Below, in pieces: positions 909 through 44,534 of a stretch of DNA of 44,534 nt. Origin of the DNA: a virus. The notes beneath the pieces were generated by a model. It was not told the DNA's origin, searched no databases, and was given only the letters and a program-made list of their open reading frames with translations. Numbering within the stretch: the stretch's first letter is position 1; every line of letters begins with the position of its first letter. The stretch is taken from positions 1 to 44,534 of the IMG/VR virus record IMGVR_UViG_3300034358_000002. One strand, given 5' to 3'. A program made the position numbers and the translations under genes.

Positions 909-3900
909 ATGAGCGAAGCCAAGGGCAAACTGACCCCTAAGAACCCGATGACCCCTGCCGAAGTACTGAGTGCCCAACAGGCTGTCAGTCCGGTACCCGG
1001 CGTTGGGTTGGACGCTGTAGGTGGTCAAGTGGTACAGGGGCAGGTTGCCGCTGGCCAAGCGATCAACGCAGAGAACCTGAAAGGCATTAAGGCAGATCAG
1101 GATCGGGCGGCGCTGGACACGGCGTCGGCGCTCCTGCAAGAGAGCACGGTAGCTGGTCGGGCAATCGACGAGGCTAGCCAATGGTTCGGTCCTGAGGAGA
1201 CTCAGATCGACCGTGGATTCAATGCCGGCACGTACGCCACCAAGCGGTTCGCCGAGTTGGGTATTCCCCAGAACGACCGGTACACCAAGGCCATTGCACA
1301 GGCCGCAAACGCACAGGATGCCGAAGAGATCATCGGGCGCATCCAGAAGCACGAGGAGAACCAACGTGTCGTTGCAGATAACCCGTACTGGAACTTTGGA
1401 GCAACGATGGTGGACCCTGTTGCTCTCGGCATGGATGCTCTTACTTTTGGCACCGGGCGAGCACTGCGACTTGGCCGTGGCGCTATGGCTGCTGTCGGAG
1501 GTGCCGGTCAATTCGCTTACGTCGGCGCGATGGATGCGGTTGACATGGAAGTGGATACCAGTACCTACATTCTGGCGGGTGCTCTGGGCGCAGGTATCGG
1601 CGCTGTGTTCGGCAAGGGTGCGGGCCAGTTAGGCCGCGATGCAGTAAATCCCCCTCCGGCTATCCGGCCTGAGCCTATCCCATCCCCTACACCAACCCCG
1701 GCATCAGCGGTGCCAGGCGCTCCGCCAGTCACAGCTCCAGTGGTTAATCCGCTGGTAGATCAGGGCCTGCGGGTAGACACCCTGATGAAACAGGAAGTCA
1801 TGCCTACCGTGCCGCGTGCAGCCAGTGCCTTCGAGGATGCCCTTGTACAGGGTGCCCATGGCAAGCCAGCTAGTGAGGCCGCCTCCTTCCTTGCAGCCCA
1901 TGCCGACGTCCCAGTGGGTCTGCGGGCTGTAGCTGCCAAGGTTGGCGACACGCTGCGCCGTATGGAAGCTGCCGGGCAGACTACCCTGTTCCGCGTTGTG
2001 CGCGGTGGCGATCAAGCACCTGAGAGCTTCCTGCGCCCAGGTACCGCCGGCATCCACGTCACCCACGAAGGTGAGTCCCTTGTGGCTGTGCGTGGTGCCT
2101 CAGCGCCGGGTCGCGATGGTGCCAACCCTGTGACAGCCCTGCATGAGCTGACGCATGCTGCCACGGTACAGATTATGCGTGCGGCTTCTGCTGCGCCGGA
2201 GACTGTCTCAGCCGCCTCCCGCGAGGCTCTAGCCACCCTGCAAAACGTACTGGCCACCGTCAAGGTACACGTAGCAGGTCTGTCGGACAACGGCCTGACT
2301 GACTTCGAGCGGGCCATTAAGGCAGGACACAACAACTCCACAGCGAACACAATGGAGCTGGTATCGTGGGGCTTGACTGATACACGCATGCAGGCCCTGT
2401 TGAACAAGATCAAGATGCCTAGCGCACCGGGCACCCTGTGGGATTCATTCGTGGGTCAGGTTCGTCAACTGCTCGGCATGTCCGTAGCCGATGACACTGC
2501 GCTGAGTCAAGTGCTCCAATCTGCTGGGCGCCTCATGGATGAAGCACCGGGCTACACTGCCCAGACACAATCGTGGGCAGCCAAAGGCGCCCCGTCGATC
2601 CAGCCTAGCTGGGAGTCCATCGGGCAATCGGCGAAGCAGAAGGCAGCGGCATCCCTCGGGTTCGTGAACCGGTTCTTCTCTGAGGCTGACTTGCTCGGCG
2701 TCACTGGGGAAGCACGTACACTCATGGGCCGCTTGATCGACGACCCTGTACGTCGGGAGGGCTTCAGCACTAACGACAACGCGGCGAGCTACCTGCGCCG
2801 CTACCGTAACGAGTTCGACGGGTACGTGAAGCAGTACGATGACATGGTTGCCGACGTAATGGCCCAGCGTGGGGTGTCGTGGAAGGACCGGGCACTGGCC
2901 ACCAAGCGTGGTGTGGCTGCACGGGATACCTTGAATGACGAGGTATCCGCAGAGCTGCTCCGCCGTAACCGCTCATGGACCGCCGACGGCTACGTTAGCG
3001 ACGTGGCTGATCTGGACCCGAACGTGGCCCGCCTCGCTGATATGAGCGACAACGTACACGGCCTCATGGGCCAGCGTGCCCGCGAGGCAGGTGTGCGGGG
3101 CTTCGAGGACTTCGTGCCAGTACCGGGTTACTTCCACCGCTCATGGAACTACAGCAAGATGCTGGACCTCGACAACGTGCAGCCGGGCTTAGCGGCCAGC
3201 ACCATCGGTGAGGCTGTGTTCCGTGGACTCAAGACTCTGGAGCATGACGACGCCCTGACCATCGGTAAGGCTATCGTGCAGCGCGCCAAGGATCGGGCAT
3301 CAGGCATCCGCTCGGAGTTCATGGGCGCACTGGGCGTGGCTGATACCACCTTCATCCGCGAGTCGCTGGAAGCAGCGAATGTCAGCCAAGTGAAGATCGA
3401 CAGCATCATGGGCAAGATCGAGCAGAAGGCATCCGACCAAGGTACTGTGAAGTACGGGAAGGGCCGCTTGAATCTGGATATGGATGTCGAGGTGAATGTG
3501 GGTGGCAGCGTGTACCGTGTAGCCGACCTGATCGACCGTGACTTGGATCGTCTGATGGAGAACTACGCCGGCAGTATCTCGGGCCGATCTGCACTGGCTC
3601 GGGCAGGTATGCCGGGTGACAGCGAGATCGAGGCATTCATCCGGGAGTACACCAAGTCGGTGAACCACCTCGGGGTAGCGAAGACGGAAGAACTCACCGG
3701 CCAACTGCGCGGCGTGTTCGGCGACTTCACCGGCAACGTTCCGAAGGAGCACCAGCTTGGCCCATTGGCTCAGCGTGCCTCCGGCCTGACTGCTGCGACC
3801 ATGCTGGGATTCTCTGGTGTGTACCAGTTGGCAGAGATCGCCACCATCATGCACCGTCAAGGTGTGGCGGCTACCTTCGGGGAGATGATGAAGTCCTTCA

Positions 3901-4883
3901 ACGGGGGTATGGGTAAGATCCTTGGCATGGCTAATCGGGACCCGGATCTCGCTGCTGAGATGCAAACTGTGCTTGGTCTGGACCTTGCTCGGGATGTGCG
4001 TATGAAGCCGTGGAAGCGGCAGTTCGATACCTTCCTGAACTCCAGCGACACCACGTTTGACCGGCTGCTGCATAGCGGTAAGCAGGCCACCCCAATCTTG
4101 AACGGTATGAAATTCGTGCATGGCATCCAGTCCCGCATGAACGCCAACCTCACGCTGAACAAGATCGCCCGTGCATCCGCCGGGGACGCTGACGCCCTGG
4201 CTGTACTCAAAGCGTACGGCAAGGACGTGGACTGGGACCCCCTGTTACAGCGGGTTCGCGGTTATGTCTCCCTTAACGGAAAGAACGCTACAAGCATGAA
4301 CTGGGGCGTATGGCCAAAAGCCGACGTGGATACCGTGATGAACACGGCCCTGCGACTGATGGATGACTCGTTGCTGTTCGGACGGGTAGGCCAGAACGCA
4401 GGTTATGCCCGCTCCCCAGTTGGCCAGATCCTCGGCCAGTTCCGCAGCTTCGTAGCATTCGCACATAACAAGTTACTCCGAGGCACCTACGAGAACAACG
4501 GGGTGCTCGGCGTGGCGTCACTGCTCGCCTTGCAGTATCCGCTTACCGCCATGATGATGGGTGTGAAGTCTGCCATCAACGGCAAGCTCGATCTATCAGA
4601 GAAGGGCTTGAAGAAGATGGCCATTGACGGCATCAGCTACACCGCAGGTCTGGGCTTCACTGCCGATATGTGGGGCGTGGTATCTGGGAACGGGCGCATG
4701 AGTGCGCCTGTCTTCGGGCTGGTCGAGAACACCGGGGAAGTATTCCGGGGTGTTAAGGGCCTGCTTGGGGATGATCCTAAGGGCGCCGTGGGTGACATCA
4801 CTAGCGGAGCAGCAGGCTTGGTTCCGTTCGTGAACGTGTTCCCAGCATCTAAGCTGCTTCTGGAAAGCATTAAAGGAGAGTAA
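909..4883 (+). CDS. Large internal virion (ejection) protein with zincin-like domain
   Basis: This 1324-residue protein sits where T7 gp16 / phiKMV gp37 sit, between the lysozyme-bearing virion protein and the tail fibre. Such proteins form the inner core and are ejected to make the trans-envelope DNA channel. The visible parts are a hydrophobic Gly/Ala stretch (about 185-240), a Pro-rich linker (about 248-280) and an HELTH motif at residues 412-416. ELVSWGLTD follows, with E483 as a possible third zinc ligand. A long hydrophilic helical body (about 560-1300) resembles gp16-type proteins. The HExxH plus downstream Glu pattern is that of zincin metallopeptidase domains of large polyvalent phage proteins; T7 gp16 instead has a transglycosylase at its N-terminus. 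Position and size make the role secure, but peptidase activity is inference. The gene also contains a copy of the TATGTCTCCC element at 4259-4280. Confidence 0.85.
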   Translation: MSEAKGKLTPKNPMTPAEVLSAQQAVSPVPGVGLDAVGGQVVQGQVAAGQAINAENLKGIKADQDRAALDTASALLQESTVAGRAIDEASQWFGPEETQIDRGFNAGTYATKRFAELGIPQNDRYTKAIAQAANAQDAEEIIGRIQKHEENQRVVADNPYWNFGATMVDPVALGMDALTFGTGRALRLGRGAMAAVGGAGQFAYVGAMDAVDMEVDTSTYILAGALGAGIGAVFGKGAGQLGRDAVNPPPAIRPEPIPSPTPTPASAVPGAPPVTAPVVNPLVDQGLRVDTLMKQEVMPTVPRAASAFEDALVQGAHGKPASEAASFLAAHADVPVGLRAVAAKVGDTLRRMEAAGQTTLFRVVRGGDQAPESFLRPGTAGIHVTHEGESLVAVRGASAPGRDGANPVTALHELTHAATVQIMRAASAAPETVSAASREALATLQNVLATVKVHVAGLSDNGLTDFERAIKAGHNNSTANTMELVSWGLTDTRMQALLNKIKMPSAPGTLWDSFVGQVRQLLGMSVADDTALSQVLQSAGRLMDEAPGYTAQTQSWAAKGAPSIQPSWESIGQSAKQKAAASLGFVNRFFSEADLLGVTGEARTLMGRLIDDPVRREGFSTNDNAASYLRRYRNEFDGYVKQYDDMVADVMAQRGVSWKDRALATKRGVAARDTLNDEVSAELLRRNRSWTADGYVSDVADLDPNVARLADMSDNVHGLMGQRAREAGVRGFEDFVPVPGYFHRSWNYSKMLDLDNVQPGLAASTIGEAVFRGLKTLEHDDALTIGKAIVQRAKDRASGIRSEFMGALGVADTTFIRESLEAANVSQVKIDSIMGKIEQKASDQGTVKYGKGRLNLDMDVEVNVGGSVYRVADLIDRDLDRLMENYAGSISGRSALARAGMPGDSEIEAFIREYTKSVNHLGVAKTEELTGQLRGVFGDFTGNVPKEHQLGPLAQRASGLTAATMLGFSGVYQLAEIATIMHRQGVAATFGEMMKSFNGGMGKILGMANRDPDLAAEMQTVLGLDLARDVRMKPWKRQFDTFLNSSDTTFDRLLHSGKQATPILNGMKFVHGIQSRMNANLTLNKIARASAGDADALAVLKAYGKDVDWDPLLQRVRGYVSLNGKNATSMNWGVWPKADVDTVMNTALRLMDDSLLFGRVGQNAGYARSPVGQILGQFRSFVAFAHNKLLRGTYENNGVLGVASLLALQYPLTAMMMGVKSAINGKLDLSEKGLKKMAIDGISYTAGLGFTADMWGVVSGNGRMSAPVFGLVENTGEVFRGVKGLLGDDPKGAVGDITSGAAGLVPFVNVFPASKLLLESIKGE
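4259..4280 (+). promoter_or_regulatory. TATGTCTCCCTTAACGGA element, copy 1 (inside ejection-protein gene)
   Basis: These 22 bases are identical to the copy at 33973-33994 although this one is inside a coding gene. The GGAGA arm that lets other copies fold into a hairpin is broken here (GGAAA), so the conserved feature is the sequence and not the stem. It lies about 600 bases upstream of the tail-fibre start. It is a candidate phage RNA polymerase promoter. Confidence 0.45.
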
Positions 4884-7172
4884 ATGGCACACTTCGTCTA
4901 CATCCCCGAGTCCACCCATATTGGGACCGGGGCTGAAACCATCTTTGGTTTCGACTGGCCCTACCTATCGCCTGACGACATTCAAGTGACGGTTGATGGG
5001 GTAGATGTCCCAACTGTGCTGTCCGGCCTAGCGACCGTGCTGATCACACCCGCACCTGCACTGAATGCGGCTATCCGCATTTACCGCGACACCGATGCGC
5101 AGAACCCTGCGTACCAGTTCGCAACTGGCGTACCGTTCCTGCCCCGCTACGTGGATGAGAACAACCGCCAGACCCTGTACGCTGTGCAGGAGGGATACCT
5201 GTTTGCAACTGATGCTGTAGAGACAGCCAATGCGGCACTGGCCCTCGCCACCACAGCAGACGCTAAGGCTGACGAGGCCTTGACCAATAGCGATAACGCG
5301 GTAGCTGACGCCGCCGCTGCATTGCTTGCGGCGGGTAACGCGATGACCGCTGCATCCACCGCGCTGACTGTGGCCAACGGCGTAGACGCCAAGGCGGACA
5401 CAGCGCTGGCTGACTCGGCTGAGGCACTGGCCTTGGCGCAGCAGGCCATCGACGCGGTAACAGCATCCGGTGTGGCCAGCTTTAATGGTCGCTTTGGATT
5501 CGTGGTACCTGCTGCTGGCGACTACGCCGCAAGTATGATCGCCACCTCAGTGTCCGGTCAAACTGTGCAATCCACTCTGGATGCTCAGCGTGCCGCGCTG
5601 GAGCTGGCAATCAACAACTACGCCGATCAGGTGAACGCCGCCCTCGGCTCCAACCTCATTGGCTATCGTGGACACACTGTCCGCACCGAGTTGGATACGA
5701 AGCTGCGGTACCACACCCCGGAGGAGTATGGGTATGCCATCGGCAACTCACTCGCCTCCCGCACTGCGGCCCTGCAAGCATGCCACAACGCGGCCAATAC
5801 CGACAAGCGATCCGTGTTCTACAGCGACGTGTACGTCGTCTCCAAGCTGACCCTGAGCGACCACACCGAGTACGCCATCACTGGTACCGGCGGCATCGCT
5901 GCTGGTGATGCGGTCACTGCGTACAGCTCCCTACTGGAGATCGTGAACAGCACTGCGCTAAAGACCTTCGGGTCTATCTACGTCTCCTGTGGCGGCAACA
6001 CGAACTACACGGCAGGCATCAAAGTCTGGGGCTCCGGCTCTGGTCCGGGCGGTCTGCGCACTTGCTCCCTGCACTATCTGGGGTTCAACGTGATCGGCGC
6101 CAAAGTGGGTTGGCAGTGGGGCGACCGTGCTGCACCTGACAACCTCCTGTCGGAGAACGTCATGTACGGCGGCTACACCTACAACACCCCGATCTCTGTG
6201 ATCGTCATCGGTACCCAGGCTGTTATTGAGGCCAACGGCTACCAGTTGATCGCAGCGGGCTCTGGTGGGTTGGCAGGTATCCTTCACGTTGTAGCCCGGT
6301 GCATCGGCGGCGTACTTACCATCAATGGCGGTGAGTGCCAGATCCCGACTGTCAGCACCGGGTACTGCTTCGAGCTGGCGCCGATTGACTCCCCGTCTTT
6401 CGCGCACACCTACGGTAGCATCGCTGTCAACGGTAGCAAGATCGAGTCTGCCTCCCTGCTCCTGTTCGCGCACAACATCAACACCATCCCGGACATCGCA
6501 GTGGGCTCTGGTAGTCTGTGCATCTCCGGCGGCGGTGGGTACCACTCGTTCACTGGCGCGAGCTTCCAGGCGGACTCCACCTTCAGCGGTAAGCTGGTTG
6601 TGGATAAGCTGGCTCACTTCCACTGCAACGCACTGCGTACTGCGCAGACTGTGGCGTTCAACGGTCCCGCAGAGATCGACATCGAGAACCTCGCGTTCGA
6701 TACCAACTTCCGTCGTGGCCTGTACGGCATCACTGGCGGTATCCCACGGTTTGGCTACCAGCAGATCTTCGAGGTCGTGAACCTCGCGGGTCAGGCTATT
6801 GCTTCCGGCGCGGCTGTAACCCTGAAACCGCAGGCCATCCCTAGCCGGGAGAACAACCAACACTTTTCAGCCAACTGGAACCTTGCGACTGGGGTGTTCA
6901 CAGTTCCGCAGGGCGGCTTGAAGGATGTCCGTGTATTCGTTCAGGTGGATAGCGTTTCGGCGCGGGCTGCCTCGTCGGTGCAGGTCATCATCAACAACGT
7001 CGGTGTAGGTGGGTGGTTCGGGGTTGCTGGCCACTACGGTGCTGGCACCTGTGAGCTGGGCGACCTGCCTGCGGGCACCACTGTAGACATCCGGTTCTTC
7101 AACGCGGACCTTGGGACAGTGACCTTCGGGTCCTCTAACTTCGACCGCATCGTACTCCATGCACGCAACTAA
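4884..7172 (+). CDS. Tail fibre / tailspike, T7 gp17-type N-terminus
   Basis: This 762-residue receptor-binding protein starts immediately after the stop of the ejection protein. Residues 1 to about 105 resemble the T7 gp17 N-terminal domain that fixes fibres to the tail (FVYIPESTHIGTG at the start, YVDENNRQTLYAVQEG near residue 95). An Ala/Asp-rich heptad region (about 110-195) looks like a trimeric coiled coil. A long Gly/Ser/Thr-rich beta region (about 260-620) looks like the parallel beta-helix of tailspike depolymerases. The last 110 residues look like a beta-sandwich head of C1q/TNF type (IVLHARN at the end). The enzyme fold and any polysaccharide substrate are inference. The distal part is expected to vary between related phages because it decides host range. 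Confidence 0.85.
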   Translation: MAHFVYIPESTHIGTGAETIFGFDWPYLSPDDIQVTVDGVDVPTVLSGLATVLITPAPALNAAIRIYRDTDAQNPAYQFATGVPFLPRYVDENNRQTLYAVQEGYLFATDAVETANAALALATTADAKADEALTNSDNAVADAAAALLAAGNAMTAASTALTVANGVDAKADTALADSAEALALAQQAIDAVTASGVASFNGRFGFVVPAAGDYAASMIATSVSGQTVQSTLDAQRAALELAINNYADQVNAALGSNLIGYRGHTVRTELDTKLRYHTPEEYGYAIGNSLASRTAALQACHNAANTDKRSVFYSDVYVVSKLTLSDHTEYAITGTGGIAAGDAVTAYSSLLEIVNSTALKTFGSIYVSCGGNTNYTAGIKVWGSGSGPGGLRTCSLHYLGFNVIGAKVGWQWGDRAAPDNLLSENVMYGGYTYNTPISVIVIGTQAVIEANGYQLIAAGSGGLAGILHVVARCIGGVLTINGGECQIPTVSTGYCFELAPIDSPSFAHTYGSIAVNGSKIESASLLLFAHNINTIPDIAVGSGSLCISGGGGYHSFTGASFQADSTFSGKLVVDKLAHFHCNALRTAQTVAFNGPAEIDIENLAFDTNFRRGLYGITGGIPRFGYQQIFEVVNLAGQAIASGAAVTLKPQAIPSRENNQHFSANWNLATGVFTVPQGGLKDVRVFVQVDSVSARAASSVQVIINNVGVGGWFGVAGHYGAGTCELGDLPAGTTVDIRFFNADLGTVTFGSSNFDRIVLHARN

Positions 7173-11594: not shown

Positions 11595-12298
11595 CGCTGA
11601 GTTTATGCTAGTCCTGTCTCCTCCTGTGCTCGTTCTATGCGCACTGGGAATTTTATTTAGGCACGAGTGACACCTCCCGACTCCGAGCAGCCCAGGCATC
11701 CCCCATGGCACCCTCCTCGTGCTGGCTATCGTTCCGTTCCATGCAGCCATCGTATCCCTCTCTGCCTAGGGATGCAACACCCTAGCTCAGTGCATCGGAG
11801 CGGAGTGCGAAGCACGAAGCGGAGATGGCTTACCGTGCTACGCTGTGCAGTGCAGTGTGCATCCTATGCGCCATGCGCCCAACTGTCAACCCTTGATGCC
11901 CAGCCTAGCGCCTGGCAGCGTCTGTGGTAGCTCCTGTGCTGCTGAATCCACCAACCCGCATCATCCCTGCGCATTGCTGGTAGCACACCGTCACGGGCCT
12001 GCCTGAGCCCTGCTGCTGCGTAGGTACGCGCTAGTGACATATCAGCCTGCGCGATAGCCCGAGTAGCTCTATCCATTGTGCTTAGCATCGTCATTGCTCC
12101 TGTGTGTCTGTGCGCGGCCTTTCCTCTATCGTGCGTGCGTCTCTGTGCAGCCTTGCTTCCAACACCGCCACAGTACCTCACACCATGCCTCTCTGTCCAG
12201 CCTAGGCCATCCCACTCCGTGGCTACACTTCGTTGCGCGTCATACCGGCTATGCCATTCCTTGCGCGGCGTCATACCGCTTTTACTTCGCTTCTCTTC

Positions 12299-12314
12299 AT
12301 AAAGGGAGACAATA
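12299..12314 (+). promoter_or_regulatory. T7-promoter-like core ATAAAGGGAGACAATA
   Basis: GGGAGACA here is the inverted counterpart of TGTCTCCC in the element at 12358-12377, and ATAAAGGGAGA resembles the initiation end of T7 promoters (CTATAGGGAGA). The -17 to -5 part does not match T7 well. It could be a phage promoter reading toward the first early gene, or one arm of an RNA stem that pairs with the 12358 copy. Confidence 0.3.
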
Positions 12315-12357: not shown

Positions 12358-12377
12358 TATGTCTCCCTTACAGGAGA
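12358..12377 (+). promoter_or_regulatory. TATGTCTCCCTTAACGGA element, copy 2 (variant)
   Basis: TATGTCTCCCTTA is intact; the second half reads CAGGAGA in place of ACGGAGA. The stem TCTCC/GGAGA with a six-base loop is kept. It ends 15 bases before the ATG of the first early gene, just upstream of that gene's AGGAGG site. Confidence 0.45.
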
Positions 12378-12392
12378 ACACTAGGAGGTTGT

Positions 12393-12884
12393 ATGAAGCA
12401 TCATCACATTCACGATGCAGGTAAGTACTACATGGTGCAGGTGGGTACGCATCCAAACCGCGTGCGCAAGACATTCACCACTATAGAGGCGGCTATTGAG
12501 TTCCGTGACTCGCTGGGGGTTAAGGCTCCTGCACCACGTAAGCCTAAGGCACCCAAGGCCGGGAAAGGTACAGGCATCCTGGGTTTGAGTATCGTTAATG
12601 GGTGCTGGTTGGCTCAGGTAAGTGTTAATGGTGTGCGGCACCGTAGGACGTTTGGGAAGGCCACCGATGCTAACGCTAGGTTGGCTGTGGCTTGGTTAGG
12701 TGGACTGCGCGGCACACGTACCGCTGTGCTGCCTGAGGGTACGGCCAAGGCCCTGGAGGCGGGTGCCAAGGATGCACACGCACGTATTGATGCGTGGGCC
12801 GCTAAGAAGGCAAAGCACGTCCTTACAATGGCGGAGCGCATCGCAGCTAATAAGCGTGCGTACAATGCAAAGCGGAAGGGTTGA
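12393..12884 (+). CDS. AP2-like DNA-binding early protein
   Basis: This 163-residue basic protein is the first gene after the probable genome end. The ATG at 12393 has AGGAGG six bases upstream; an in-frame upstream start at 12330 lies in non-coding sequence. Two short repeats resemble the three-stranded AP2/integrase DNA-binding fold: KYYMVQVG..RVRKTF (about 11-30) and GLSIVNGCWLAQVSVNG (about 64-80), with TFGKATDANAR just after. A Lys/Ala helix ends the protein (KRAYNAKRKG). Such domains are common in phage homing endonucleases, but no HNH catalytic part is visible. DNA or RNA binding early in infection is an inference. Its stop overlaps the -35 box of the first tandem promoter. Confidence 0.7.
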   Translation: MKHHHIHDAGKYYMVQVGTHPNRVRKTFTTIEAAIEFRDSLGVKAPAPRKPKAPKAGKGTGILGLSIVNGCWLAQVSVNGVRHRRTFGKATDANARLAVAWLGGLRGTRTAVLPEGTAKALEAGAKDAHARIDAWAAKKAKHVLTMAERIAANKRAYNAKRKG

Positions 12885-12909
12885 CACGCTGTAGGTTACT
12901 CGATACTAT
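12881..12909 (+). promoter_or_regulatory. Early sigma-70 promoter P1
   Basis: TTGACA, 17 bases, TACTAT. The -35 box is consensus and overlaps the stop codon of the AP2-like gene. It is the first of four similar promoters reading right into the early region. Confidence 0.75.
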
Positions 12910-12953
12910 GGCCACCTCTTCACAGCAAACCACACGGTGCACTGAGTCGAGGG

Positions 12954-12982
12954 TTGACACGGTACGCTGGGATAGGTAGAGT
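12954..12982 (+). promoter_or_regulatory. Early sigma-70 promoter P2
   Basis: TTGACA, 17 bases, TAGAGT, 73 bases after P1. Both P1 and P2 have GGGTTGACAC around the -35 box. The leader begins GGCAGCCAAGCAACGCA, close to that of P4. Confidence 0.75.
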
Positions 12983-13083
12983 GGCAGCCAAGCAACGCAA
13001 CAACGTAGCAAGCCCTTGGGGCAAGGCGTTGGTGGTACGGGGTTAGGTCTGGTTCGCCAGCTTAGCGACTTCCAACCACGGTG

Positions 13084-13112
13084 TTGACAGACACAGAGTC
13101 ACGCTGTAGAGT
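13084..13112 (+). promoter_or_regulatory. Early sigma-70 promoter P3
   Basis: TTGACA, 17 bases, TAGAGT, 130 bases after P2. Its leader contains GCAACACAGGAAC, also similar to P4. Confidence 0.75.
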
Positions 13113-13187
13113 ACGCAACACAGGAACCTGAGCGGATGTCACGAGTAGGGTTCACGGTAGCGGAATAGCTCAAGAGGCTCCGCACTA

Positions 13188-13227
13188 GATAGCACACGCT
13201 ATCAGCGTAGGGAGTGAGACACTACGC
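13188..13227 (+). other. Two adjacent RNA hairpins upstream of promoter P4
   Basis: GATAGC-ACAC-GCTATC (13188-13203) is a six-base perfect stem with a four-base loop. It is followed at once by GCGTAG..CTACGC (13205-13227, 11-base loop). Placed between P3 and P4 they could end or trim the P3 transcript. Confidence 0.4.
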
Positions 13228-13230
13228 CGC

Positions 13231-13259
13231 TTGACAGCAACACAGGCAGCCGATAAGAT
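13231..13259 (+). promoter_or_regulatory. Early sigma-70 promoter P4
   Basis: TTGACA, 17 bases, TAAGAT, 147 bases after P3. It is the strongest match of the set and the last clear one before the early genes. The leader is GGCCGCCAAGCAACACAG. Confidence 0.78.
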
Positions 13260-15836: not shown

Positions 15837-16205
15837 ATGACAACCAAGATTGCAACCTGCATCGCCAGCACTACAGGCGAGGACATCGTAACCCTCGCCG
15901 TCGGCCTGTGCCGTAAGCACAGCATCGACCTGAATAGCACCCGCATTGGTCGCAGCTACACGCCAACGCGTGGCTGGTTCCCGTGCGTGTTCATCGTGCA
16001 AGAGCTGCAACGAGTGGCTGAGATTATCGAGGTGCGCTGCATCCAAGAGCGCGTACCGGTGTGGCACCTGCAAGGCGGGCCTGACTCAGGTACGCTCCAG
16101 CAGTACACTACAGGCGAGCCGTCCTACCAGTACAGCTCTAAACCTCAGCCGCTGGATCAAGTGATCGAGTACAACGGAGCTACATTGTATGTCCAAGGTA
16201 AGTAA
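15837..16205 (+). CDS. Unknown early protein, 122 residues
   Basis: The soluble protein begins MTTKIATCIASTTGEDIVTL, with Cys at 8, 25 and 50 and several aromatic strands. It overlaps the next gene by 17 bases. There is no classical ribosome site; only GAG within a small palindrome precedes the ATG. The family is not recognised. Confidence 0.7.
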   Translation: MTTKIATCIASTTGEDIVTLAVGLCRKHSIDLNSTRIGRSYTPTRGWFPCVFIVQELQRVAEIIEVRCIQERVPVWHLQGGPDSGTLQQYTTGEPSYQYSSKPQPLDQVIEYNGATLYVQGK

Positions 16206-30618: not shown

Positions 30619-31158
30619 ATGCGAGAGTACAAAGTAGTCGAATGCCCTGGCAACAAAAAGCATGCAGGTAAAGTGGGTACCCTCAGCGAGCTTGGCGTTT
30701 TCGTGGACCACAGCAACTCCTGCCGGTTTGAGGGTCTATACAACATTGGCCCCGGCCTGTACAAGAACGCCAACCTCACTATGGTGGCTGAGATTGTCGA
30801 GCCGACGGGTTGCTCTGGTGTTGAGGCTATACAGCCCGGACAGGCCTTTAAGGAAGACGACGGCAAGCCAAACTGGTACCTGCTGATGTCCGCCAAGGGC
30901 TGCGCCTCCGCGCTGGCCGGCGTTGTACGAGTTCTGTCCTTCGCTGTTCGTGCGAAGGACAAGGGTGGCAAGGGCTACATTGAGCATAGCTGGCGCGAAG
31001 TCCCTAATGGCAAGGAGCGCTACGAGGCCGCGCTGTACCGGCACCTAAGCAAGGTCCATCTCGGGGAGTTGGTGGATGATGAGTCCGGGGAATCCCACTG
31101 GGCACATATCGCCACGAACGCCTTGTTCTTGGCTGAGCTGCACAAGTCCCGTGAATAG
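30619..31158 (+). CDS. dATP/dGTP diphosphohydrolase-domain protein
   Basis: 179 residues. The second half follows the pattern of the dATP/dGTP diphosphohydrolase N-terminal family: KPNWYLLM (about 83), ALAGVVRVLSFAVRAK, then YEAALYRHLSKVHLGE, DDESGESHWAHIATNALFLAEL. This MazG-like helical fold has conserved Glu/Asp/His that hold metals. It may adjust the nucleotide pool. Some phages with this family make diaminopurine DNA, but no PurZ-like gene is seen here. The first half (1-75) is an unassigned strand domain. Confidence 0.72.
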   Translation: MREYKVVECPGNKKHAGKVGTLSELGVFVDHSNSCRFEGLYNIGPGLYKNANLTMVAEIVEPTGCSGVEAIQPGQAFKEDDGKPNWYLLMSAKGCASALAGVVRVLSFAVRAKDKGGKGYIEHSWREVPNGKERYEAALYRHLSKVHLGELVDDESGESHWAHIATNALFLAELHKSRE

Positions 31159-31509: not shown

Positions 31510-33960
31510 ATGACCGACCTGATTGCCCTCCAAATCGAACACGAAGACAACCTGCACGGGGAGGCTGTGGATAATGCGAAGACACGTCTCCAGCAGGCGC
31601 TGGAGGGCGGTCAGTTGGACAGGGTGCCACGAGCACGGGTCCTGATGCTGCGCCTGTTCCAGCAGACACAGGAGGCGATCCAGCGAGAGATCGACGGCAA
31701 GGCAGCAGGGCCGGCGGCGAACCTCCGCCATATCCTGCGAGCCCTGCCGGCTGATGTGTCTGCGGCGCTGGCGCTGCGTACGGGGCTGATGATGGTCATG
31801 CGCGGTGATCGGGTAGGGGTTGTGTCTGTAATGGCTGCAATCGGCTCACAGGCCCTGAAGGAGATCGAGGTGCGCACGGCTATCAGCCTGAATAGCGCGT
31901 ACTACGACCGCACCCTTGAGTACCTGCGAACCAGCGGTACCGTGAGCCCACGGCACATCGCGAAGACCATGCAGGCTGTGGTGAACGCCGTGGTGCCTGA
32001 GAGCGCACGTATGGAGCTGTCTCAGACGGATCTGGTGAAGTTCGGGAAGTTCTTCTTTGACCCACTGATCGAGTGCGGCTTACTGGAGACGGTGCGCTCC
32101 TCGAACAAGGGCGGCACGGTAGTGTCGGTGGTCCCGTCCGAGGAGGCCCGGAAGTTCCTGATTGAGTCCGAGGTGATCAGCCTCTGGGGCGGCGTAGGGA
32201 CGTCTGTGTGCCTAGCCCCGCCTATCCCATGGACTTCAGTGTTCGAGGGCGGCTACCACACGGAGAGGACGCGGAAGGCGCACTTGTTCCTACGGCGATC
32301 CAAGCACCAGACACGGAAGGCCCGACAAGTACAGCTCCGGGCGGCTACTCTGGACAAGATGCCGAAGGTGTTTCAAGCTGCGAACTACTTGCAGTCGATC
32401 CAGTACGAGATTGACCCTGCGATGTTTGCCACGATCCAGACGATCTGGCATGAGGGCGGTGGCGCCCTCGGGGTGCCTACAAAGACATTCCGAGACAAGC
32501 CTGAGTTCCCCTTCCAAGAAGCTTGGGAGAAGGCACAGGCATCTCCTGGGGAGCTGGAGGGGTTCAATGCTTGGAAACGACGAGTTCACCGATGGCACAC
32601 AGCGAGCACAAAGCACCGCGCAGCTCAACGTGACTTTGGCGCACTGTATAGAGTTGTGCAAAAGCACCACGGAACAGGCATTTGGTTCCCTTGCCATGTC
32701 GACAGCCGGGGGCGGTTCTACTATTGGGGTTCCCCGAATCCCCAAGGAACCGATATGGCTAAAGCCTGCCTCCGGTTCCGCACGAAGAAGGCACTGGGTA
32801 GACGTGGTGTCTTCTGGCTTAAAGTACAGATTGCTAATACCTACGGTGCCGATACGGGTGAGTTTGCCGAGCGGGCTGCTTGGACGGAACATCGACTGGA
32901 TGATCTTCGACGAGTTAGCGCTGAAGGAGCCGACTCCGAGTTCTTGGCAGATGCAGACTCCCCGCTATGCTGCTTGGCGGCAATCCGCGAACTCCTCGCT
33001 GCGATTGACAGTGGCGCACCCGAGTCGTTTAAGTCTGGCCTTATCATCCACATGGACGCCACCTGCTCTGGATTGCAGCACTTCTCTGCCCTCCTGCGAG
33101 ATCCTGTGGGCGGGCAGTACGTCAACCTCGTCAACCCAGGGAAGTCCAAGGCGGACATCTATCAGCGAGTTCTGGACCTATCCATGGCCCGGCTCCGTGC
33201 TGAACTGGTGGCCGGTGATGCTGACACCGCCGCTTACGCTAACCTGTGGCTGAGCTACATCGAAGCAGGGAAGGGTCGCAAGCTGGCCAAGGGGCCGTGC
33301 ATGACGCTGGTGTACGGTACGACGTTCCGTGGGATCGTAGACCACTGCCTTGACTGGCTTGAGGATAACGGGCACACGGTACCTAAGGGAGTCCCTGCGC
33401 TTGCGCTGGCAGGGCATATGACCCGTACCCTACTGGATGCTATCCGTGAGACGGTACCGGCTGCTGTAGCGGCCATGGAGTGGCTCCAGTCACTTGTGCG
33501 CAAGGTGGACAAGGACGGTGTGATCTACTGGGAGACGCCGCTGGGTATGCAAGTATTCCAGCAGTACCCTGTGATGAACGACACCCGAGTGCGCCTCCGT
33601 AGCCTAGCCACCGAGTTCGCTATCGTTAAGGAAGCCACAGACGTACTAGACATCAGGAAGTCCGCCAACGGCATCTCACCGAACTTCGTACACGGTCTGG
33701 ACAGTGCGCACCTAGGTGGGACAGCTATCCGTATGGAGGAGTCCCAGTGCGAGATGTCGGGTATCCATGACTCTGCTGGGACACACGCTTGCGATGTGGA
33801 TACCATGCACATCCACCTGCGGGCAGAGTTCTTCGAGATGTACGAGCGCAAGTGCTGGTTGACTGAGTTGCGAGATGGCTTAGGGTTAGATACTCCTGTA
33901 CCTGTCCGTGGTTCTCTTGACCTAAGTAAGGTGAAATCCTCCTGGGCTTTCTTCTGTTAA
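31510..33960 (+). CDS. Phage single-subunit DNA-directed RNA polymerase
   Basis: 816 residues, against 883 for T7 and 816 for phiKMV. Catalytic motifs: MDATCSGLQHFSALLRD (D516, equivalent to T7 D537), KGPCMTLVYG (K594 and Y602, equivalent to K631 and Y639), and NFVHGLDSAHL (D731, H734, equivalent to the D812 motif). The C-terminus ends SWAFFC where T7 has FAFA. It transcribes the late genes from phage promoters. Its place just before the head genes, not among the early genes, marks the phiKMV-like plan. GAGGAA precedes the ATG. Confidence 0.97.
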   Translation: MTDLIALQIEHEDNLHGEAVDNAKTRLQQALEGGQLDRVPRARVLMLRLFQQTQEAIQREIDGKAAGPAANLRHILRALPADVSAALALRTGLMMVMRGDRVGVVSVMAAIGSQALKEIEVRTAISLNSAYYDRTLEYLRTSGTVSPRHIAKTMQAVVNAVVPESARMELSQTDLVKFGKFFFDPLIECGLLETVRSSNKGGTVVSVVPSEEARKFLIESEVISLWGGVGTSVCLAPPIPWTSVFEGGYHTERTRKAHLFLRRSKHQTRKARQVQLRAATLDKMPKVFQAANYLQSIQYEIDPAMFATIQTIWHEGGGALGVPTKTFRDKPEFPFQEAWEKAQASPGELEGFNAWKRRVHRWHTASTKHRAAQRDFGALYRVVQKHHGTGIWFPCHVDSRGRFYYWGSPNPQGTDMAKACLRFRTKKALGRRGVFWLKVQIANTYGADTGEFAERAAWTEHRLDDLRRVSAEGADSEFLADADSPLCCLAAIRELLAAIDSGAPESFKSGLIIHMDATCSGLQHFSALLRDPVGGQYVNLVNPGKSKADIYQRVLDLSMARLRAELVAGDADTAAYANLWLSYIEAGKGRKLAKGPCMTLVYGTTFRGIVDHCLDWLEDNGHTVPKGVPALALAGHMTRTLLDAIRETVPAAVAAMEWLQSLVRKVDKDGVIYWETPLGMQVFQQYPVMNDTRVRLRSLATEFAIVKEATDVLDIRKSANGISPNFVHGLDSAHLGGTAIRMEESQCEMSGIHDSAGTHACDVDTMHIHLRAEFFEMYERKCWLTELRDGLGLDTPVPVRGSLDLSKVKSSWAFFC

Positions 33961-33972
33961 ACCAAGCCTCTC

Positions 33973-33994
33973 CGGTTATGTCTCCCTTAACGGA
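33973..33994 (+). promoter_or_regulatory. TATGTCTCCCTTAACGGA element, copy 3
   Basis: 22 bases identical to copy 1, followed by GAG so that TCTCC/GGAGA can form a stem. It is enclosed in a longer stem CCGGTTATG/CATAGCCGG ending near 34017. Confidence 0.5.
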
Positions 33995-34096
33995 GAGAAG
34001 CGAGAGGCATAGCCGGTGGAGCGGATCGAAGGATAAGAGATAGAGTATAGTAGTATAAGAGTTACTATAGATATACCTTAATAGTATATAGGGAGA

Positions 34097-34115
34097 TTAT
34101 GTCTCCCTTAACGGA
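34097..34115 (+). promoter_or_regulatory. TATGTCTCCCTTAACGGA element, copy 4
   Basis: Exact core, 11 bases before the ATG of the 34127 gene. The GGAGA arm of the stem (34113-34117) is also the best ribosome site for that gene. GGGAGA at 34091 can pair with TCTCCC as a rival stem. Confidence 0.5.
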
Positions 34116-34126
34116 GAGAGATTAGA

Positions 34127-34372
34127 ATGGCCAGATTAGGGCGCAAAAGTAACCCTCCCGAATATGTCTCCCTTAACGGAGGAACAGCCAAGAGTTCGGC
34201 TCACCCTGTTTACTTCACCCCGGAACAGGTCAGATGGCTTGAGGAGACATTCCCCGAGCCTCAGATCACCCCGGACACTACGATGGAGACAATCCAGTAC
34301 GTAGCCGGCCAGCGCAAGCTGATCCACGCCATGCGAGCCCGTGTTCGCAATATGACCACGGTGCAGCTATGA
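34127..34372 (+). CDS. Small late protein, 81 residues
   Basis: First gene of the structural unit. Its ribosome site GGAGA is part of repeat copy 4, and its codons 13-18 (YVSLNG) are repeat copy 5. The product has a basic start (MARLGRKSNPP) and helices (TPEQVRWLEETFPEP, TIQYVAGQRKLIHAMRARV). It overlaps the next gene by four bases. Function unknown; possibly head assembly. Confidence 0.7.
   Translation: MARLGRKSNPPEYVSLNGGTAKSSAHPVYFTPEQVRWLEETFPEPQITPDTTMETIQYVAGQRKLIHAMRARVRNMTTVQL
34163..34180 (+). promoter_or_regulatory. TATGTCTCCCTTAACGGA element, copy 5 (inside the 34127 gene)
   Basis: Exact 18-base core inside coding sequence, read as YVSLNG in the same frame as copy 1. GGAGG in place of GGAGA shortens the possible stem. 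Confidence 0.45.
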
Positions 34373-34821
34373 GCATTCGAGTCGAGAACACCATCCGGTA
34401 CGCTGGGCAGTCCGCCCGTATCGCTGTACTCGCACTTCCCAGCATCCGCGAATTCAAGGAGCTGCGGCAGAACAAGGATATTCGTGAGGACGTACACCGC
34501 ATCGCTTCCAGCCTCGCGGAGTTCGACCGCACCGAGATCGTGATCTACGACGGCAACGCTGTTGTAGGTGGCGCTACCATCGTTCTTGACGATGACCAAC
34601 ACGTCGGCCCATGCTTGAGCCTGCAATGGCAGTACGTGCTCCCCGCGTACCGCCGCCTGCACTTAGGTCGCCACTTCGTCCGCGAGCTGCTACGGCAAGC
34701 TGGCTGGGCCGGTATCCGTAATGTGTCGTACTCCCACCGCACCGGTGAGGGGCAGTACACAATCACGTACCGAGAGGTAGAGCATGGGCAAGAAAGTAAA
34801 AAAGATTATCGGCAAGGCTAA
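34369..34821 (+). CDS. GNAT acetyltransferase-like protein of the structural unit
   Basis: 150 residues. IVIYDGNAVVGGATIVLDDD then SLQWQYVLPAYRRLHLGRHF (about 82-101) match strand 4 and the acetyl-CoA loop of GNAT folds. It sits directly upstream of the small head gene and portal. A similar small acetyltransferase-like gene is found at this place in several podophages. Whether it is packaged or acts on host proteins is unknown. It overlaps both neighbours and holds CTGTACTCGCA site 8. Confidence 0.65.
   Translation: MSIRVENTIRYAGQSARIAVLALPSIREFKELRQNKDIREDVHRIASSLAEFDRTEIVIYDGNAVVGGATIVLDDDQHVGPCLSLQWQYVLPAYRRLHLGRHFVRELLRQAGWAGIRNVSYSHRTGEGQYTITYREVEHGQESKKDYRQG
34424..34434 (+). promoter_or_regulatory. 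CTGTACTCGCA site 8
   Basis: Exact copy, inside the GNAT-like gene (read there as V-L-A), 349 bases before the next start. It is the last copy before the structural genes. Confidence 0.5.
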
Positions 34822-42298: not shown

Positions 42299-44534
42299 AT
42301 GGCTGAACGATCATCACAGGAACTAGGGCTACGGCTACCCGCCACCCAACTGCAAGCGTCCCCGAGTGGTGGTCGGGCTACCGTAAAGGATTACGACGTG
42401 GAGTCCCGCGACGGCAGTGCTACTCAGGTGCTGTCTGGGATCTTCTCCGCCGTAGGTGGTATCGCCGACAAGAAGTTCCAGTCGAACGTGCAGGAGCAGA
42501 TCCTGAGCGGTCAGCGCCAACGTATGGCTGGGGTCGCCGAGGAGTCGCTGGATTCCAACCCATTCACCGCCCCCTTTGTGCGTAACGGGTACAAGCAGCA
42601 GGACTACCGGATCAAGCAGGCCGACTTTAGCCTGAGTATGTCGCAGTTGATCGACAACGAGGGTCGCAAGATGACCCCGGCTGAGTTCCAGAAGAAGCTC
42701 AGCACCGAGGCGCAGGGCGTTGTGAGTTCGCTCGACGGCCTTCCGCCTGAGGCGCACATGCAGGCGCTGATGCAGCAAACCAAGGCCGAAGAGACTTTGG
42801 TGACGAAGCAGACGCAGGCCCACTCTGCCTGGACGGTTGAGCAGGGCACCAAGCCATTCCTCGCTCAGGGTAATAGCATTCTTGCCAAGCTCACTCAGGC
42901 GTCGTCCCGAGCCGACGATCTGACGTACCGTGCTGGTACCGAAGAGGCCGCGCTGTACTATATGAACCTGCTGAACACCCCAGCCATCCCGGATGCAGCC
43001 AAGCCGGGTGTAGCGAAGAACTTCCTGCTCGGCGCGCTGGACTTGAATCAGCGCAAGGTGTATGAGGATCTCCGCGATAATGGTGCGCTGGACCCACTGG
43101 GCTTTGATGACCGCCGGGAGCTGAACTCAGCGTATGAGCGCAGCCTTGCCAGCACCCGTGGCCAAGAGAGCATGGTGGATCTGGAGCGTGACGCCACCTT
43201 CCAGACTGGTGTAGCCTCCGGTGCCGTAGGTCTGGACGAGGCATCAGCCTACGCCAAGGATCGAGTAGACCGGAAGCTGTGGGGCGCCGAGCAGGCCATC
43301 AACTTCGTGCAGGGTGCCCAGAAGGGCGTGGCCAACCGGCAGCTCATGTCGAACATGGTGACATCGCTGGAAGCAGGAGATGTGAATAGCCTGAACCGGC
43401 TGGGCTTCTCCACTGACGAGGCGCTGACCAAGTACGACCAGATCCTCGCAGCCAACGGCTCTACCTTGAGCCAACGTCTGACCGCCACCACCAAGCTGGG
43501 CCTGCAACTCGGCACCTTCCCCTCGACCTACGGGGCGGCGGTGGGCGCATCTGTGCGGGCTGTGCTGGCTAGTGGTGAGAAGGGCGAGGTCAACCCGGAG
43601 ATGATCCAGACGCTGAACGCCATCACGGAGCAGGTTGCCCAAGCGGAGTCCACCAACCCTGCCGCCGGCAATACACTGCTGCAAGGCGTACCAGAGAATG
43701 AGCGAGGCGCGATCTCGTACATGCTCCAGCAGTCCAAGCTCGGCATCCCGCCAGGTCAGGCCCTGAAGGAATACGGCGCACAGGATCTGGCGGCTACCCA
43801 GCAGGACGATGCCCAGAAGTTCATCAACAGTCAGTCGTTCCAGAAGTCGTTGGCCACGAAGGTGGATAACACGTTCCTGTCCGGCGCCTTTGGCCGTGTT
43901 GGTAACTTCCTTACCGGCAATGCGAACCTGAGTGACAACACCGCCGTATTGAGCATGTACACCCGCGCCGTGCAATCGGAAGCCGTGCAGCTCAGTGGGG
44001 ATCGCCGCAATGCGGGCCTACTGACCTCGGCGGTCGGCCACGAGTCCCTCCTGAACCTCGCAGCGGCCAACGTGTCGGAGCGGACCATTCAGGTGGGTAA
44101 GGCGGGCGTCCTGTTCGACCGCGAGCGCACTCCGCTGATTCTCCCCCGAGGTACCGGCATTGATACGGTATTCGGCTCCAAGGATAAGCAAGGGATTGCG
44201 CAGGAGCTGGCTGAGCGGTACCCGCCTGATGTTATGGGTACCATGGGCACTGCCGGCGGCTCTGGTGGTGCAGGTGGTTGGATCGGGGAGAAGTCCACGA
44301 TTGCCTTCGAGTACACGAACCAGAACGGCCTGTATCGTATTCAGTACGATCAGAACGGTCAGGAACTGGACCGCATCAAGATCGACCCTAAGGCCATCGG
44401 CAATACCGTAAACACCAAGAATGCCGCGCATGTGAATGCTCAGCGGGCTGCGGATCTCGGAGCTGCTGTGGACGTATCGGGTCGGGAAGTAGGTCCGAGC
44501 TACGGGCCATCCGCAGCGGCTGGTATGCTGGGGC
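42299..44534 (+). CDS. Internal virion protein with lysozyme domain, N-terminal part
   Basis: An open frame from an ATG with AGGAGG upstream runs to the window end without a stop. Codon 704 equals window base 1, so it joins the fragment 1-906 to give 1004 residues. The front is gp15-like (VLSGIFSAVGGIADKKFQSN, then ESLDSNPFTAPFVRNGY). A long helical body follows. It is predicted to line the periplasmic channel during DNA ejection and carries the muralytic domain at its far end. Confidence 0.88.
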   Translation, partial: MAERSSQELGLRLPATQLQASPSGGRATVKDYDVESRDGSATQVLSGIFSAVGGIADKKFQSNVQEQILSGQRQRMAGVAEESLDSNPFTAPFVRNGYKQQDYRIKQADFSLSMSQLIDNEGRKMTPAEFQKKLSTEAQGVVSSLDGLPPEAHMQALMQQTKAEETLVTKQTQAHSAWTVEQGTKPFLAQGNSILAKLTQASSRADDLTYRAGTEEAALYYMNLLNTPAIPDAAKPGVAKNFLLGALDLNQRKVYEDLRDNGALDPLGFDDRRELNSAYERSLASTRGQESMVDLERDATFQTGVASGAVGLDEASAYAKDRVDRKLWGAEQAINFVQGAQKGVANRQLMSNMVTSLEAGDVNSLNRLGFSTDEALTKYDQILAANGSTLSQRLTATTKLGLQLGTFPSTYGAAVGASVRAVLASGEKGEVNPEMIQTLNAITEQVAQAESTNPAAGNTLLQGVPENERGAISYMLQQSKLGIPPGQALKEYGAQDLAATQQDDAQKFINSQSFQKSLATKVDNTFLSGAFGRVGNFLTGNANLSDNTAVLSMYTRAVQSEAVQLSGDRRNAGLLTSAVGHESLLNLAAANVSERTIQVGKAGVLFDRERTPLILPRGTGIDTVFGSKDKQGIAQELAERYPPDVMGTMGTAGGSGGAGGWIGEKSTIAFEYTNQNGLYRIQYDQNGQELDRIKIDPKAIGNTVNTKNAAHVNAQRAADLGAAVDVSGREVGPSYGPSAAAGMLG
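44408..44534. repeat. Terminal direct repeat of the contig, right copy
   Basis: Identical to bases 1-127. Features here duplicate those at the left end. Confidence 0.95.

Follow-up and report, generated by a model that had tools for sequence, protein, structure and literature searches.

Genomic context of the element

The window, by which we mean the whole stretch of DNA analyzed here, is a source record of 44,534 bases with an identical 127-base direct repeat at both ends (1 to 127 and 44408 to 44534), indicating a circularly assembled phage genome that was cut at an arbitrary point; its unit length is about 44,407 bases once the end repeat is counted once. It is the genome of a phiKMV-like phage related to phiNV3, with genes ordered as in phiKMV. 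The nearest named phage is Pseudomonas phage phiNV3 (Kirikabuvirus, Krylovirinae), with 61% of the right part of the window covered at 76% DNA identity. Searching viral contigs with a single protein revealed no relatives, and an alignment search did find relatives. A cognate single-subunit RNA polymerase (RNAP) is encoded before the structural genes (Table 1) and shares 77% identity with that of phiNV3, 52% with those of phiKMV and LUZ19, and 31% with that of KP34. Just upstream of its gene, at 30619 to 31158, we observe a protein with a dATP/dGTP diphosphohydrolase N-terminal domain (PF18909, 3.2e-21). With respect to the ejection protein, residues 404 to 549 match phrog_2206 (2.6e-11), an N4-type annotation as "virion RNA polymerase". 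The 163-aa AP2-like protein at the left end found no match in phage records; the matched part of the HNH_3 protein of the relative G002 (L099) is C-terminal, and that protein sits at the same place as the AP2-like gene.

Table 1. Features of the window that bear on the repeated element, in order of position
Feature	Position	Strand	Remarks
Ejection (internal virion) protein gene	909..4883	+	phrog_342, 6e-212; carries copy 1
Copy 1	4263..4280	+	Exact; inside ejection-protein gene, ahead of tail fibre gene; predicted start G4278
Sixth copy, degenerate, leftward	12296..12313	-	ATTGTCTCCCTTTATGAA; left end; score 14.1 with relatives-only matrix
Copy 2	12358..12375	+	Two mismatches; left end; 20 bp before ATG of AP2-like gene; predicted start G12373
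AP2-like gene, 163 aa	12393..12884	+	Downstream of copy 2; 52% identity over 48 aa to HNH_3 protein, L099
Four sigma-70-type early promoters	12881..13259	+	10/12 matches each, spacer 17; like sites in LUZ19 and phiKMV
Single-subunit phage RNA polymerase gene, 816 aa	31510..33960	+	PF00940, 2.7e-87; phrog_414; presumed reader of the element
Copy 3	33977..33994	+	Exact; intergenic; predicted start G33992, 32 bp past RNAP stop codon
AT maximum, 70 bp	34033..34102		74% AT vs 41% overall; between copies 3 and 4; candidate origin unwinding region
Copy 4	34098..34115	+	Exact; intergenic; predicted start G34113; orthologous sites in phiNV3, L018/L019
First late gene	34127..34372	+	phrog_6575, function not assigned; contains copy 5
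Copy 5	34163..34180	+	Exact; 36 nt inside first late gene; predicted start G34178
GNAT acetyltransferase gene	34369..34821	+	PF00583, 7.3e-07; phrog_3986; in position of Rac (LUZ19 gp28), LUZ19-like gene order

Copies of the element in the window

The element is 18 bases long (TATGTCTCCCTTAACGGA) and, across the whole window, occurs five times, always on the plus strand (four times exactly and once with two mismatches), compared with 0.01 copies expected in shuffled sequence. This bears out the sequence-only reading, which had described a cluster of three copies at the start of the late genes with two distant ones, and which had counted 22 bases as identical between copies 1 and 3 (4259 to 4280 and 33973 to 33994). 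Of the three copies that this reading places just after the RNAP gene, copies 3 and 4 fall between genes, behind the stop codon at 33960, and copy 5 falls within the first late gene. Together with copy 1, this makes two coding copies among the five, not one. Copies 1 and 5 are translated in the same frame, each giving YVSLNG, in two unrelated genes. Copy 2, previously described as diverged and as preceding the first early gene, is indeed diverged, and the gene that it precedes is the AP2-like one. Since an equivalent rightward site precedes the HNH endonuclease gene at the left end of G002 (L099:2100), copy 2 probably goes with a mobile gene at the left end.

Conservation of the sites in related phages

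The sequence-only reading had pointed to related phages as a place to look for the element, and a conserved set of sites is found there: in phiNV3 (20875, 20997, 21064, and 35702 on the plus strand, 1027 on the minus strand), phiKMV (20492, 20678, and 34956 plus, 710 minus), and LUZ19 (21118, 21315, and 35593 plus, 731 minus), with phikF77 and several metagenomic phages showing the same plan. Copy 3 has a counterpart behind the RNAP gene in phiNV3, phiKMV, LUZ19, KP34, and others, and sites lie within the same first late gene as copy 5 in phiNV3, phiKMV, and LUZ19. A strict pattern yielded 21 matches in eight relatives, against 2 for the reversed control. The letter pattern of the element was not found in LKA1, VP93, L022, or L026, and an exact-motif scan of viral contigs returned one match, a lone site in L001 that may be due to chance. 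In the Erwinia phage Micant, we observe two tandem TTTAGAGTAACASGCTTAGG copies behind the RNAP gene (L016, 20425 to 20545), with KP34-like spacing and other letters, which are likely a promoter of the same kind.

When 35 sites from eight genomes are aligned around the predicted start G, information is present only from −16 to +7 and falls to near 0 bits from +8 on, which fixes the direction of the element as rightward. The start position is G in all 35 sites, and TGT and C(−8) are invariant. The span from −16 to +7 is approximately the extent known for T7-type promoters. A matrix built from the relatives only, without the window's own sites, places the five window copies at the top (21.3 to 22.5 bits), followed by scores of 14.1 and 12.2, and a matrix built without the phiKMV sites recovers exactly the four phiKMV sites (17.3 to 22.7 bits; next, 9.1). 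In random genomes the best score per genome has a mean of 13.3 and a maximum of 21.8 bits, so that a single high score is in itself weak evidence; the site at 15933 (12.2 bits) and the minus-strand copy (14.1 bits) both fall inside this range. The latter, which is absent from the sequence-only reading, is not significant by score alone. Its left-end position is held as a minus-strand site in seven relatives (phiNV3, phiKMV, LUZ19, phikF77, G009, G002, and G006), and the window retains only this degenerate leftward site, next to copy 2, which reads rightward.

Furthermore, the site in the ejection gene occupies one orthologous codon position in Krylovirinae-type genomes, and its letters track the consensus of their own genome more closely than those of other genomes (2 of 5,040 permutations fit as well). 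The encoded residues shift accordingly (YVSLNG, YVTYRG, NVTYNG, and NVTRIG), and the codons there are rare, ranking in the lowest 1.9% of windows here, 0.9% in phiNV3, and 0.04% in LUZ19. It is the DNA signal, more than the protein, that is kept at this site.

Probable promoters for the phage RNA polymerase

We consider it very probable that each copy is a rightward promoter for the phage's own single-subunit RNAP, with the first G of GGA as the start of transcription. Support comes from three sides: the geometry of the KP34 promoter, the conservation from −16 to +7 around the G, and the recurrent placements (after the RNAP gene, within the first late gene, at the orthologous ejection-gene codon, and at the left end) together with the tracking of each genome's own consensus by the ejection-gene copy. 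In KP34, the strong promoter of the RNAP is T(A/G)ATGTTACAGGAGTA, and most transcripts start at the next G, nucleotide 22213, as mapped by 5′-RACE; the promoter sequence occurs at nucleotides 475, 22197, and 33721 (PMC6834552). The first of these KP34 sites is at the left end, the second follows the RNAP gene, and the third falls within the gene for the internal core protein. The late promoters that the sequence-only reading had suggested are the best-supported reading, with geometry and placement matching the mapped KP34 promoter and with a site set that is conserved in relatives.

From the copies observed here, their positions, conservation, geometry, and co-variation, we infer initiation, start sites, and timing as follows. 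The host polymerase would make the early proteins and the phage RNAP from the sigma-70-type promoters at 12881 to 13259, after which late transcription would set out from the three copies downstream of the RNAP gene, covering the first late gene, then the Rac-like inactivator of host RNAP, and then the capsid and tail genes. The first bases of copy 4, GGAGAGA, lie where the Shine-Dalgarno sequence of the gene at 34127 would be and, because the predicted start is 14 nt before the ATG, the beginning of this transcript could itself act as a ribosome-binding site. Copy 1 would boost transcription ahead of the tail-fibre, terminase, and lysis genes, and transcription from copy 2 would serve the left-end gene before continuing through the early region. 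Neither a sigma-70-like promoter nor a terminator was found between 33500 and 34800, and an explanation of the late cluster by sigma-70 promoters was rejected given the lack of such a site in this interval.

Counting against the promoter reading are the relatives in which its letter pattern was not found (LKA1, VP93, L022, and L026) and the existing promoter annotations, which do not match the conserved motif. The records of LUZ19 (L012, 3130 to 24784) and phiKMV (L014, 6306 to 24157) label CGACCCTnnCCTACTCCGG-type sequences as phage promoters, and this motif has only two scattered matches in the window, with three mismatches each. An ONT-cappable-seq transcriptome study, reportedly from 2024, may already answer part of the LUZ19 case. 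For KP34, a promoter prediction made earlier in silico did not hold up in vitro (PMC6834552), which calls for caution also with the phiKMV and LUZ19 annotations. While phage RNAP promoters are a known kind of element, the set in Krylovirinae lacks annotation in the records examined; what is new here is the plan of this set in the phiKMV group, its conflict with the annotated promoters, and two testable extensions.

A candidate replication origin and other readings

In addition to acting in transcription, the promoter cluster behind the RNAP gene could also be the primary origin of DNA replication, a proposal that would add to the promoter reading and not replace it, and which our analysis leaves plausible though on balance doubtful. 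In T7, the primary origin comprises a tandem pair of promoters immediately after gene 1 and an AT-rich stretch, and this layout is shared by the window, where tandem phage promoters and an AT-rich stretch likewise follow the RNAP gene. In the window, phiNV3, phiKMV, and LUZ19, no 70-bp stretch of the genome is richer in AT than one located between the first of these promoters and the one after it (rank 1 in each), with AT fractions of 0.74 in the window (next, 0.61), 0.79 in phiNV3 (next, 0.63), and 0.64 in LUZ19 (next, 0.57). The same stretch is the regional maximum in L018, L019, and L021. T7 likewise has an AT peak right after its tandem promoters: phi1.1A is 26 bp and phi1.1B 101 bp past the end of the RNAP gene, and the stretch that follows them, 5939 to 6008, is one of two AT peaks found in the first 8 kb, with the second lying after phiOL. 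Transcripts that the phage RNAP starts at copy 3 might melt the adjoining AT-rich stretch or prime replication in it, as at phi1.1A/phi1.1B. Against an origin, intergenic gaps are generally AT-richer, the margin in phiKMV is small (0.61, with the next at 0.57), LKA1, VP93, and Micant lack this AT maximum, and in KP34 the stretch ranks third. In three phages, third-position GC skew is slightly lower to the right of the site than to its left, with no consistent sign change.

The remaining readings would replace the promoter. The element is repeated, directional, and sequence specific, with one site near the left end, as would suit a binding site of another phage protein (for packaging, or a repressor); we regard this as most unlikely, given that the KP34 geometry and mapped start, the −16 to +7 span around an invariant G, and the late-gene placement all fit a polymerase promoter. 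An RNA hairpin or RNase processing site has even less probability: TCTCC and GGAGA are able to pair in copies 3 and 4, and copy 4 adds AGGGAGATTATGTCTCCCT (an AGGGAGA..TCTCCCT stem), but neither stem exists in copy 1, in the late-start sites of phiNV3, or in the phiKMV sites. We reject it, as both stems vanish in relatives while the rightward core persists, in agreement with the sequence-only reading, which had favored sequence recognition over structure. Its other proposal, in which each copy would produce antisense transcripts from the reverse-strand sequence TTAAGGGAGACATA, taken as an initiation region like that of T7, draws on a resemblance to GGGAGA on that strand only and is rejected as extremely improbable, since its recognition region would fall where plus-strand conservation stops, since the copies of phiKMV, G004, and G006 (TCACCCACA, TCACATACA, and TCACTCGTA) lack GGGAGA and keep the rightward TGT-C-GG core, and with a genuine leftward site at the left end only.

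Returning to promoters for the phage RNAP, we propose, more tentatively than the origin itself, that those of the phiKMV subfamily might follow a fixed plan, in which the late cluster around the AT maximum would be the primary origin and a conserved leftward promoter at the left end would face the terminal repeat, away from all genes, possibly for end replication or concatemer processing. If this plan is true, the promoters annotated so far in the phiKMV and LUZ19 records would be wrong. Predicted RNAP-promoter pairs are now available for the phiKMV group, where the annotated promoters appear to be different sequences, and orthogonal pairs of this kind are wanted for Pseudomonas expression tools. 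In addition, one short candidate origin region can be named per genome, and one leftward left-end promoter is left to explain.

Comparison with known systems

The tandem promoters phi1.1A and phi1.1B of T7 resemble the window's cluster in lying directly behind the RNAP gene with an adjoining AT-rich stretch, and the extent of the T7 promoter around its start is similar to that of the element. The promoter sequence itself is unrelated, and the AT-rich stretch follows the second promoter in T7 but the first in the window.

Among the papers listed, a matching promoter is printed for KP34 only (PMC6834552), the sole mapped promoter in the group in the literature read here, and one used by an RNAP that is 31% identical to the window's. 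KP34 and the window share the spacing of ATGT, 10 nt, and GG, with TGT and C(−8) common to both, and their sites occupy three corresponding types of location (the left end, downstream of the RNAP gene, and the internal core or ejection gene). They differ in the spacer (TACAGGAGTA in KP34, CTCCCTTAAC in the window) and in the number of sites, three in KP34 compared with a cluster and two further copies here, and the ejection-gene site lies elsewhere in the gene.

The sites in phiKMV and LUZ19, which are unannotated, lie as in the window behind the RNAP gene, at the start of the first late gene, and in the ejection gene, with a leftward site at the left end; their consensus is TCACCCACA, and they have two sites at the late start in place of three. 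The likewise unannotated sites of phiNV3 comprise a three-site cluster behind the RNAP gene, an ejection-gene site at the same codon, and a left-end site, and they differ from those of the window in their consensus (TCTCCCTTAGTGGT) and in a left-end site that is leftward and intact.
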